From: an uncultured Gemmatimonadota bacterium | GTDB taxonomy: Bacteria > Gemmatimonadota > Gemmatimonadetes > Gemmatimonadales > Gemmatimonadaceae | Assembly: GCA_902825965.1 (NCBI GenBank) | Contig: CADEDA010000028.1 | Span: 1 to 34,111 of the forward strand | Reading direction: 5' to 3' | Length of the DNA stretch: 34,111 bases | Shown here: positions 4,088 through 7,372 of the stretch, in pieces | Numbering within the stretch: position 1 is the stretch's first letter | Layout: each line of letters begins with the position of its first letter | Made by a program: the position numbers and the translations under genes | The notes under the pieces: generated by a model | Databases searched by the model: none | Told to the model about the DNA's origin: nothing | What the model saw: the letters and a program-made list of their open reading frames with translations, nothing else

Positions 4088-4630
4088 TCAATGCCCCTTG
4101 AGCTGCAGGTAATCGAGCTCCACCGACGTCGGGCGCCCGAAGAGCGACACCGAGACGCGGACCTTGCCCTTGTCCACCATCACTTCCTCGACCGTGCCGT
4201 TGAAATCCGTGAACGGCCCGTCCGTGATCGCCACGGCCTGCCCGACGAGGAACGGGATCTCCTCCTTCGGCAGCGCCACTTCCTCTTCGACCGCGATCCC
4301 GAGCAGCCGCTTCACTTCCTCATCCCGCAGCGGCTGCGGATCGCGATCCTTGCCGACGAACTTGATGACGCCCTGGATGGCGTTGATGGTGTGGAGCGTC
4401 TCCTCTCCCACCACCATCTCCACGAGCACATAGCCCGGGTAGACCTTCCGTTCGACGGTCACCTTCTTGCCGTTCTTGATCTCGACCACCTGCTCGGTCG
4501 GGACCAATGCCTGCCGGATGGCACGCGACTCCGCCGGAGCCGGATCCGCGTCGATCTTCCGCTGGATCAGCATCCGCACCTTGTTCTCGTGCCCCGACGT
4601 CGTCTGGATGGCGTACCAGCGGTGCGTCAC
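4088..4630 (-). CDS. nusG: transcription elongation/antitermination factor NusG
   Basis: NusG binds RNA polymerase over the cleft, promotes processivity and links transcription to Rho or the ribosome. The 180-aa product has the NGN domain (HRWYAIQTTSGHENKVRMLIQRKI, VYPGYVLVEMV) and a C-terminal KOW domain (about residues 125-180, VGQAVAITDGPFTDFNGTVEEV, VSLFGRPTSVELDY). Translation starts at GTG (4628-4630), chosen because the family N-terminus begins there; a G-rich GGGGGC lies upstream. It is 5 nt after secE, the near-universal secE-nusG pair. A 289-nt gap follows before rplK. Confidence 0.98.
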   Translation of the reverse strand: MTHRWYAIQTTSGHENKVRMLIQRKIDADPAPAESRAIRQALVPTEQVVEIKNGKKVTVERKVYPGYVLVEMVVGEETLHTINAIQGVIKFVGKDRDPQPLRDEEVKRLLGIAVEEEVALPKEEIPFLVGQAVAITDGPFTDFNGTVEEVMVDKGKVRVSVSLFGRPTSVELDYLQLKGH

Positions 4631-4635
4631 GTGGA

Positions 4636-4869
4636 TCAGCCCCCGAACAACGAGGGGATGAGCCGCACGAGGACGCCCTGCAGCAGGAGGTCGAGGAGCC
4701 AGATCAGCCCGCCCACGAGCAGCGACAGGATGATCACGCCGATCGAGAGCTGCCGGATCTGGAGGCGGTCCGGCCAGGTGACCTTCTTCATCTCCGCGAC
4801 GACGTCGTGATAGAACGTCACCACGCGAGACGGAAGGCTGGGCGCGGGCGCCACGACCTCGTTCGCCAT
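4636..4869 (-). CDS. secE: preprotein translocase subunit SecE
   Basis: SecE clamps SecY in the SecYEG protein-export channel. The 77-aa product is the short, single-span form typical of most bacteria. It has the amphipathic segment with the hallmark EMKKVTWPDR (about residues 26-35) followed by one membrane helix (about 43-66). The ATG at 4867-4869 has AGGAGA 9 nt upstream. The frame is open further upstream, but that part overlaps rpmG and has no SecE similarity. It starts one base after the rpmG stop codon and is followed by nusG after 5 nt, so rpmG-secE-nusG is one operon. Confidence 0.96.
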   Translation of the reverse strand: MANEVVAPAPSLPSRVVTFYHDVVAEMKKVTWPDRLQIRQLSIGVIILSLLVGGLIWLLDLLLQGVLVRLIPSLFGG

Positions 4870-4870
4870 C

Positions 4871-5023
4871 TTACTTCGTCTCCTTGTGGACCACGTGCTT
4901 GTTGCAGCGCGGGCAGTACTTCTTCCACTCGACGCGCTCCGGATGCAGGCGCTTGTTCTTGGTGGTGAAGTAGTTGCGGTTCTTGCAGTCGCTGCACGCG
5001 AGGATGATCTTGTCGCGCGGCAT
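4871..5023 (-). CDS. rpmG: 50S ribosomal protein L33
   Basis: The 50-aa product begins [19 protein letters not shown] and is a complete zinc-ribbon L33 with two CxxC pairs (C10/C13 and C37/C40). It is therefore the zinc-binding C+ form, not the C- paralogue made under zinc starvation. The ending [15 protein letters not shown] is typical. GAGAGAG precedes the ATG. It is the first gene of the rpmG-secE-nusG unit and has a promoter candidate about 100 bases upstream. In many bacteria a tRNA-Trp gene sits beside rpmG or secE; none is present here. Confidence 0.96.
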
Positions 5024-5119
5024 AACGCTCTCTCAGGCAACAGGTTCGCAGGTGCGTCCAATCGAGGACACACCGGGCCACCCCGCCCCCGGAACGGGGC
5101 GCAAGGCGGCGAGCCTTGA

Positions 5120-5148
5120 AAGGTAGAGGGCCCCTAGGGGTGATGCAA
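5120..5148 (-). promoter_or_regulatory. promoter for rpmG-secE-nusG
   Basis: In minus orientation TTGCAT (5143-5148) and TACCTT (5120-5125) are separated by exactly 17 bases. The spacer contains the perfect palindrome CCCCTAGGGG (5131-5140). The sequence after the -10 (TCAAGGCTCGC) closely matches that of the tRNA-array promoter. A start near 5113 would give a leader of about 90 nt before rpmG. The hexamers are seen; activity is inferred. Confidence 0.5.
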
Positions 5149-5241
5149 GTCCCGATGGTTGACGGGGTTCCGCACCCGCCGCAGCACCCAAAGCCTCTCC
5201 CGCGGCCGGTCTCTGCACAGGGCGCCAGCCCCCCAGCCAGC

Positions 5242-5257
5242 GTCAGGGATCCCTGAC
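5242..5257. promoter_or_regulatory. 16-bp perfect palindrome GTCAGGGATCCCTGAC
   Basis: This sequence equals its own reverse complement over all 16 bases. It lies about 95 bases upstream of the rpmG promoter -35 and downstream of the tRNA array. It is a candidate binding site for a dimeric regulator. As RNA it has almost no loop, so a terminator role is less likely. Confidence 0.4.
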
Positions 5258-5316
5258 CAAACGGTCCACGCGACCGCATCCGGCGGCAGCAACGCCGAGG
5301 GCCTCCGGAACGCCAA

Positions 5317-5349
5317 AGGGGCGCCGCGACAAACCGCCGCAACGCCCCT
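5317..5349 (-). terminator. hairpin after the tRNA array
   Basis: In the minus transcript AGGGGCG pairs with CGCCCCT over a 19-nt loop and is followed by TTTGGCGTT. It lies 17 bases beyond the 3' end of tRNA-Thr(GGU). It probably ends or processes the tRNA transcript. The large loop and the short U run make this a moderate call. Confidence 0.45.
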
Positions 5350-5366
5350 CGCGAGTCTCCGACACA

Positions 5367-5439
5367 AGCACGCAACCGGGATCGAACCGGTGACCTCATC
5401 CTTACCAAGGATGTGCTCTACCGACTGAGCTATGCGTGC
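5367..5439 (-). tRNA. tRNA-Thr (anticodon GGU)
   Basis: A 73-nt cloverleaf folds cleanly. The acceptor stem is GCACGCA/TGCGTGC, the D arm GCTC/GAGC, the anticodon loop TTGGTAA and the T arm ACCGG-TTCGATC-CCGGT, with discriminator T. CCA is not encoded. It is the fourth and last tRNA of the array and reads ACC/ACU codons. Its position corresponds to E. coli thrT. Confidence 0.96.
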
Positions 5440-5479
5440 AACCACCATCCACGATCTGCCATCCACAATCCAAACAGAG

Positions 5480-5552
5480 AGCGGGAGACGGGGCTCGAAC
5501 CCGCGACATCAAGCTTGGAAGGCTTGCGCTCTACCAGCTGAGCTACTCCCGC
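5480..5552 (-). tRNA. tRNA-Gly (anticodon UCC)
   Basis: A 73-nt cloverleaf with acceptor GCGGGAG/CTCCCGC, anticodon loop CTTCCAA and T loop TTCGAGC. CCA is not encoded. It is third in the array and reads GGA/GGG codons. Its position corresponds to E. coli glyT. It lies 40 bases upstream of tRNA-Thr(GGU) in transcription order. Confidence 0.96.
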
Positions 5553-5621
5553 ACGACCCCGGCGACCGACCCCGCGTCGCCTCGATCCATCACCTACCGC
5601 TCACATCACCACTCTGCCTCA

Positions 5622-5704
5622 TGGTGGGGGAAGGATTCGAACCTTCGAAGGCATAAGCCGGCAGATTTACAGTCTGCTCCCGTTGGCCACTTGGGTACCC
5701 CACC
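5622..5704 (-). tRNA. tRNA-Tyr (anticodon GUA)
   Basis: An 83-nt class II tRNA with a long variable arm. The acceptor is GGTGGGG/CCCCACC with discriminator A, and the anticodon loop is CTGTAAA. CCA is not encoded. It is second in the array, matching E. coli tyrU. GUA would be a target for queuosine; no queuosine gene is in this window. Confidence 0.96.
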
Positions 5705-5743
5705 GCATCATCCCCAGTCGACCGCGGAAGCTGCCCTTCCCAG

Positions 5744-5816
5744 AGCCGACGGCGAGGATCGAACTCGCGACCGCCCGATTACAAATCGGGTGCTCTACCA
5801 GCTGAGCTACGTCGGC
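5744..5816 (-). tRNA. tRNA-Thr (anticodon UGU)
   Basis: A 73-nt cloverleaf with acceptor GCCGACG/CGTCGGC and anticodon loop TTTGTAA. CCA is not encoded. It is the first tRNA of the array, 26 bases downstream of a near-consensus promoter -10, and corresponds to E. coli thrU. With tRNA-Thr(GGU) it reads three or all four Thr codons. Confidence 0.96.
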
Positions 5817-5842: not shown

Positions 5843-5871
5843 AGGATAGTCGGAGCCGGGCGAGGGGTCAA
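5843..5871 (-). promoter_or_regulatory. promoter of the tRNA array
   Basis: In minus orientation TTGACC (5866-5871) is followed after 17 bases by TATCCT (5843-5848), the best sigma-70-type match in the window. Transcription would start about 20 bases before tRNA-Thr(UGU). The region after the -10 (TCAAAGCTCGCG) is GC-rich, like discriminators of stringently controlled stable-RNA promoters. That control is inferred from known cases. Confidence 0.7.
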
Positions 5872-5962: not shown

Positions 5963-7372
5963 TCAGCGCGCCTTCCACTTCGTACCCACGGCCGAATCCT
6001 CGATCACCACGCCCTTCTCCTCCAGCCCCTTCCGGATCGCGTCGGCCGCGGCGAAGTCGCGGCGGGCACGCGCCTGCTTCCGCTCCTCGAGTTGCTGCTC
6101 CACCCATTGCGCGAACGCGGCGTCCGCGTTCACGCGGTCGGGCACCAGCTCGAAGATCCCATCCACCATCGCGAACACCTCGCGCGCACGGCTGAGCGCC
6201 CCGGCATCACTGCCCCCTGCGTCCAGCTCCTTGTTCGCCGCCCGGATGAAGTCGAACAGCGCCGCCACGGCCCCCGGCGCGTTCAGGTCGTCGAACAGCG
6301 CGTTGCGCACCTCGTTCTCGAGATGGTCCGCGGCGTCCTCCAACCCCCGCGTGCCACCCCGGGCGTCCTTCAGCCGCTCGGCGAAGTCCGCCACACGCCG
6401 CACCGCCTCCATCGACCCCTCGAGCGCCTCGCCCGCGAGGTTCAGCTGCTTGCGGTAGTGCGTCGAGTACACGAAGTGCCGCACGGCCGCCCCACTCACG
6501 CCGTTCGCGCGCAGGTCGGCCACGTTCTGCACGTTGCCGACGCGCTTGGCCATCTTCGCGCCGTCGGTGAGCAGGAACTCCCCATGGCTCCAGCAGCGCG
6601 CGAACGGCTTGCCGGTGGCCGCCTCGCTCTGCGCGATCTCGTCCTCGTGGTGCGGGAACACCAGATCGATGCCACCCGCGTGCAGGTCCAGCGTCTCCCC
6701 GAGGATCGACATGGCCATCGCCGAGCACTCGAGGTGCCAGCCCGGACGTCCGCGTCCCCACGGCGAATCCCAGGCCGCTCCGCAGGCCTCATCCTCCGGC
6801 TTCGCCGCCTTCCAGAGCGCGAAGTCCTGGGCGTTCTCCTTGGAGTAGTCGTCCTGCGCCACCCGCGCCCCCGACTGGATCTCCCGGGTATCGAGCCGCG
6901 AGAGTCGACCATAGGCCGGGAACTTCCCGATCGCGAAGTACACCGAGCCGTCGTCCGCGAGGTACGCGACGCCGTTGGCGATGAGCCGTTCCACCAGCTG
7001 GATCATCTCCGCGATGTAGGCGGTCGCCCGCGGATAGTGCTCGGCGTCCTCGATGCGCAGGTACTTCCGGTCCTCGTGGAAGATCGTGACGACCGGATCC
7101 GTCACCTCGCGGATGCTCTTCCCCTGCTCCGAGGCGCGCTTGATGATCTTGTCGTCGACGTCGGTGAGATTCATCACCTGCTCGACCTTCCAGCCACGCA
7201 GCCGCAGGGCGCGGCGCAGCAGGTCCTCGAACAGGAACGTGCGGAAGTTGCCGAGGTGTGCGGGATTGTAGACCGTCGGGCCGCAGGTGTAGAGCCGCAC
7301 CGTCTCGCCGTCGGCGGGCGCGAACGGTTCGACGCTGCGGGACATCGTGTTGTACAGACGGAACTCGGGCAT
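5963..7372 (-). CDS. cysS: cysteinyl-tRNA synthetase
   Basis: This class I enzyme charges tRNA-Cys with cysteine in the cytoplasm. The 469-aa protein has the HIGH-like motif PAHLGN (about residues 37-42) and the expected zinc ligands C30, C216, H241 and E245. The KMSKS loop is atypical: it reads KMAKR (273-277) followed by VGN. The C-terminal helical and anticodon-binding domains appear complete (end KGVVIEDSAVGTKWK). The ATG at 7370-7372 lies 6 nt after a TAGCTT hexamer and has no Shine-Dalgarno, so the mRNA is probably leaderless. The downstream neighbour is the tRNA array, on the same strand but with its own promoter. Confidence 0.97.
   Translation of the reverse strand: MPEFRLYNTMSRSVEPFAPADGETVRLYTCGPTVYNPAHLGNFRTFLFEDLLRRALRLRGWKVEQVMNLTDVDDKIIKRASEQGKSIREVTDPVVTIFHEDRKYLRIEDAEHYPRATAYIAEMIQLVERLIANGVAYLADDGSVYFAIGKFPAYGRLSRLDTREIQSGARVAQDDYSKENAQDFALWKAAKPEDEACGAAWDSPWGRGRPGWHLECSAMAMSILGETLDLHAGGIDLVFPHHEDEIAQSEAATGKPFARCWSHGEFLLTDGAKMAKRVGNVQNVADLRANGVSGAAVRHFVYSTHYRKQLNLAGEALEGSMEAVRRVADFAERLKDARGGTRGLEDAADHLENEVRNALFDDLNAPGAVAALFDFIRAANKELDAGGSDAGALSRAREVFAMVDGIFELVPDRVNADAAFAQWVEQQLEERKQARARRDFAAADAIRKGLEEKGVVIEDSAVGTKWKAR

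Follow-up and report, generated by a model that had tools for sequence, protein, structure and literature searches.

Why does an array of four tRNA genes, in the order known from Escherichia coli, stand upstream of secE at a locus from which tuf is missing? The window (the whole stretch of DNA analysed, 34,111 nt from an uncultured Gemmatimonadota bacterium) carries on its minus strand tRNA-Thr(UGU) (5743–5816, the equivalent of thrU), tRNA-Tyr(GUA) (5622–5704, tyrU), tRNA-Gly(UCC) (5479–5552, glyT) and tRNA-Thr(GGU) (5367–5439, thrT), each called by ARAGORN and Rfam; the Rfam search returned nothing besides tRNAs. Downstream of the array and in this order come rpmG, encoding L33 (4871–5023, minus), secE (4636–4872, minus; a scanned reading frame with the start codon inside the frame), nusG (4088–4630, minus), rplK and rplA, and cysS (5963–7372, minus) is the immediate upstream neighbour, a position conserved across the phylum. 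A preliminary description, made from the letters of the window alone, had placed the four tRNAs on one strand upstream of rpmG-secE-nusG and had matched their order to that of E. coli. Both points hold: the annotated E. coli chromosome reads Thr-Tyr-Gly-Thr, then tuf, secE, nusG, rplK and rplA. Thus, among the features of a tufB operon, the window has the four-tRNA order on one strand and (rpmG)-secE-nusG-rplKA downstream, and lacks tuf directly after Thr(GGU).

Is the shared order inherited? We scanned across phyla for Tyr-Gly-Thr with short spacers and recovered at least 120 records; because the scan accepts short spacers only and this count is a lower bound, it shows presence and not frequency, and Bacillota, Actinomycetota and Cyanobacteriota lay outside the survey. 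Among the matches listed, the array occurs in Bacteroidota, Pseudomonadota, Myxococcota, Elusimicrobiota, Fidelibacterota (Marinimicrobia), Chlorobiota, Thermodesulfobacteriota, Planctomycetota, Nitrospirota, Fibrobacterota, Acidobacteriota, Cloacimonadota, Poribacteria, Rokubacteria and Gemmatimonadota. Where the stretch of a listed match is long enough, Thr(GGU) is usually followed by tuf and then by (rpmG)-Trp-secE-nusG; tuf is missing after the array in some Pseudomonas, Larsenimonas, a Poribacterium, a Myxococcota record and others among these matches. Genomes with a single tuf carry it at the array in Flaviramulus, Bacteroides and members of the Chlorobiota, Planctomycetota, Fibrobacterota and Cloacimonadota, and ~16 kb downstream of the array in Pseudomonas and Larsenimonas. 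Such reciprocal positions are the pattern expected of differential loss. In one deltaproteobacterial record (TMED58, L103), rpmG and tRNA-Trp come after the array but secE and nusG were not found in the stretch, and the genome's single tuf lies on the array's strand, ~4 kb upstream of it. In a Bacteroidales record (L180), the whole Thr-Tyr-Gly-Thr array is tandemly duplicated, with tuf before tRNA-Trp, and this record was rejected as a tuf-less case.

tRNA clusters are often rearranged, and Brandis 2021 (PMC8046335) describes these four tRNAs as highly variable, so the order could in principle have arisen independently in E. coli and in the window. The same order, strand and flank (tuf or rpmG/Trp, secE, nusG) nevertheless recur in many intermediate phyla, which leaves convergence with a negligible likelihood. 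Because the intermediate phyla have the same order, mostly with tuf after Thr(GGU), the gene-order comparison indicates that the order is shared with E. coli through common ancestry. The ancestral tRNA-tuf-secE cluster put forward in the preliminary description is therefore upheld, and tuf is kept at this position by relatives within the window's own phylum and family.

Is tuf truly absent from the window's locus, as first described? The position that it occupies in relatives is here a gap of 343 nt (5024–5366, minus) without EF-Tu similarity: the best six-frame profile score was −6.9 bits, which all 40 shuffles equalled or surpassed. As a positive control, 90-nt pieces of tuf were implanted: at a random mutation rate of 20%, all 15 trials gave scores above 0 bits, and at 30%, 87% of the trials did; a very short or strongly decayed remnant could escape detection. 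Thus, tuf is missing from the locus and no remnant was detected in the gap. EF-Tu profile searches of the whole genome, which is ~95% complete, found a single EF-Tu; it opens contig C3 and runs from codon 26 on. This sole detectable tuf precedes rpsJ-rplC-rplD, the str/S10 position at which the remaining copy had been expected. The contig edge cuts off its upstream, fusA side and the genome is slightly incomplete, which leaves a small chance that a second tuf exists elsewhere. The genome may hold more than one EF-G gene: contig C39 ends within a frame with an EF-G-like N-terminus (L007), and contig C5 carries a full-length EF-G-like frame of 705 aa (L005).

The genome's tuf sits at the end of a contig, and in many related drafts a contig breaks off at a tuf close to secE, so an assembly artefact has to be weighed, in which tuf is present at the locus and was collapsed owing to two near-identical copies. 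We consider this highly improbable: the window's contig is unbroken through the gap, and seven other members of its genus are without tuf before rpmG, including G004 and G072, which are assembled in few contigs and have one tuf elsewhere.

How often was tuf lost? Within the phylum, we compared 60 loci around secE, some of which end early at contig ends; their general layout is cysS-Thr-Tyr-Gly-Thr-(tuf)-rpmG-secE-nusG. The window belongs to genus g1 of a large family, f1. Five members of the family (G022, G015, G024, G025 and G080) keep tuf at this exact spot, as do a large part of the order, most of the class and family f9. The genera g1, g3 and several others are without it, and parts of f2 and f5 have lost it separately. 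On a tree built from five proteins of the neighbourhood, at least ten changes of tuf state are required. The better resolved RpoB tree of the family, from which the window's partial RpoB was omitted and in which its genus is represented by three relatives, contains three to four separate tuf-less groups; on it, one common tuf-less clade is rejected (AU p 3e-4), and with that a single origin of the tuf-less state in the family. Because relatives in both the phylum and the family still have tuf here, the comparison points to repeated differential loss, tuf having been lost more than once.

The tRNAs fared differently. The array copies of Thr(UGU), Thr(GGU), Tyr and Gly(UCC) are the only ones detected in the assembly, whereas tuf had a second copy; the tRNAs would thus have been kept as irreplaceable, tuf being dispensable as redundant. 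tRNA-Trp has a place between rpmG and secE in other phyla and, within this phylum, in the more distant f9 genomes; in the window's genome, it is found in a His-Trp-Glu-Glu cluster on another contig.

What occupies the gap? The preliminary description had seen a terminator-like hairpin and a new promoter there, and the promoter is the part that conservation in relatives bears out. Folding predicts a strong hairpin just after Thr(GGU) (5307–5360, minus), a weak candidate for a terminator: its stem is strong, its z is only −2.0, its U-run is weak, stems occur in other loci too, and a terminator scan made no call on it. The presumed rpmG leader (5020–5130, minus) folds more stably than shuffles (z −3.5, equalled by 1 of 200) and could be a regulatory leader. 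Two promoter-like elements flank the array. P1 (TTGACC-N17-TATCCT; 5843–5871, minus) lies upstream of it and is similar in most relatives' loci. P2 (5111–5148, minus) lies before rpmG and consists of TTGCAT (5148–5143), N17, TACCTT (5125–5120), T and CAAGGCTC (5118–5111). It emerged as a conserved block from an alignment of the gap in members of the genus and one g3 species; it differs from the E. coli consensus, and a plain sigma-70 consensus scan missed it.

In the window's genus and in g3 and g67, rpmG is preceded by P2 in the general form TTGCNN-N17-TACSTT-N-CAAGGCTC. All 10 loci from g1 and g3 in the first set contain P2, and it is conserved across 8 members of the window's genus. With three mismatches allowed, the full element occurred in 21 of 118 family genomes, in 18 of these 21 just upstream of rpmG (g1, g3, g67), and the reversed-pattern control gave 0 matches. 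A relaxed motif, CTTG-N20-TANNTT-N-CAAGGCTC, gave 33 matches in ten genomes (at loci that include L330, L332, L335, L336, L339 and L341) against 0 in the reversed control. By Pfam, ten genes after such matches encode S12, S1, Ffh, LepA (a call that rests on the order of domains), L19, S16 (twice), YqeY, SecG and an ATP synthase component, which places the motif before rpsL, rpsA, rplS, rpsP, ffh, lepA and secG. Because the relaxed matches precede ribosomal and other growth genes, P2 looks like a putative promoter type of growth genes in this family. The conserved CAAGGCTC is located where a start site is expected, and P2 is predicted to initiate transcription of rpmG-secE-nusG. At ffh, the ATG follows CAAGGCTC by one base, suggesting a leaderless ffh mRNA.

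Where did P2 come from? One candidate, that rpmG inherited the promoter of tuf after the deletion, was rejected: P2 was not found in the Thr-tuf or tuf-rpmG spacers of tuf-bearing relatives. Alternatively, P2 could be ancestral to the whole family and have been lost in the other genera, instead of having been gained twice. The likeness of the g1 and g3 elements over ~24 positions would fit such a descent, but P2 before rpmG is absent from the sampled tuf-bearing relatives and from the other tuf-less genera, including those between g1 and g3 on the RpoB tree, on which a single origin within the family was rejected. Moreover, the motif recurs in these genomes, so repeated recruitment is plausible. 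We regard an ancestral P2 as unlikely and favour separate gains in g1 and g3.

Does P2 matter to the unit? The other tuf-less loci have Thr(GGU)-rpmG gaps of 15–171 nt and presumably still depend on P1. As most tuf-less relatives have this short gap without P2, and the hairpin is a weak terminator candidate, tuf might have been lost in the window too while the array and rpmG-secE-nusG stayed one P1-driven unit, with P2 a minor internal site. The conservation of P2 in g1, g3 and g67 and its resemblance to the sites before rpsL, rpsA and rplS argue against this, as does the fact that rpmG retains P2 where the array has moved off; we judge it improbable that P1 drives everything. Such detachment is seen in five of the 10 P2-bearing loci of the first set (G072, G067, G038, G018 and G073), where the array lies kilobases away from rpmG (3.3 kb in G072, 2.7 kb in G067). 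In the three Gemmatimonas-like g3 genomes among them (G067, G018, G073) the array itself is split: Thr(GGU) is parted from Thr-Tyr-Gly by 1.3 to ~42 kb and positioned between Thr-Tyr-Gly and secE. None of the other tuf-less loci of the family has its array parted from rpmG; G079 has an insert inside the array, and both G079 and G074 are rearranged without P2. Because P2 has few (two) independent origins, its association with detachment is suggestive and does not amount to a test.

Taken together, the locus is very probably the remnant of an ancient tufB unit that lost a redundant tuf and kept its tRNAs, P2 having arisen separately in g1 and g3. The ancestral unit would have followed cysS and read P1-Thr-Tyr-Gly-Thr-tuf-rpmG-(Trp)-secE-nusG. 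The redundant tuf copy would have been lost from it, the str/S10 copy staying; a P2-type promoter would then have arisen between the array and rpmG in the window's genus and, separately, in g3. With P2 gained, rpmG-secE-nusG would no longer depend on P1, and the array may afterwards have drifted away in several species. More tentatively, tuf loss could have triggered the same series repeatedly: a growth-gene promoter typical of the lineage gained before rpmG at least twice, secE-rpoBC freed of the tRNA promoter and a gene order that is among the most conserved in bacteria broken up, with promoter gain as the step that permits operon break-up. This is a possibility that we find somewhat doubtful. 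The locus offers a clean example of a very old operon cluster coming apart. One family preserves loci with tuf kept, with tuf lost and a short gap, with a new promoter and with the array drifting away, and because these intermediate states all survive there, the order of steps is testable. A recognisable, putative growth-gene promoter type is also exposed in a poorly studied phylum.

How does the locus compare with known systems? The tufB operon of E. coli and Salmonella is thrU-tyrU-glyT-thrT-tufB (PMC6134099); the window has the same four anticodons in the same order upstream of secE-nusG-rplKA. In contrast to that operon, it is without tuf, keeps rpmG before secE, has cysS upstream and carries a second promoter-like element before rpmG. 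Differential loss of a duplicated tuf is credited to Lathe and Bork 2001 in the papers through which we cite that work (PMC1780047, PMC8046335). As summarised there, two ancient tuf copies existed and one was lost in different lineages, as here; compared with that account, the losses are now resolved inside one phylum, and several separate losses leave the array in place. The ancestral-cluster reading is thus already published, and the locus largely adds one more case to a known process. The sequel to tuf loss, P2, looks new, and a limited literature search found no description of promoter gain before rpmG. Brandis 2021 (PMC8046335) reconstructed a gammaproteobacterial tufB operon that includes these four tRNAs, inferred that the ancestor of Firmicutes had a tufB operon (citing Lathe and Bork 2001), placed rpmG and tRNA-Trp beside secE and cysS upstream in Bacilli, and described operons disconnected after insertions. 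The window resembles these operons in the genes that make up the tufB and secE units and in their order, in having rpmG by secE, in the loss of a single gene and in the breaking of joined operons. Whereas that study covers mainly Gammaproteobacteria and Bacilli, in the window cysS neighbours the tufB tRNAs and promoter gain goes with the break-up.
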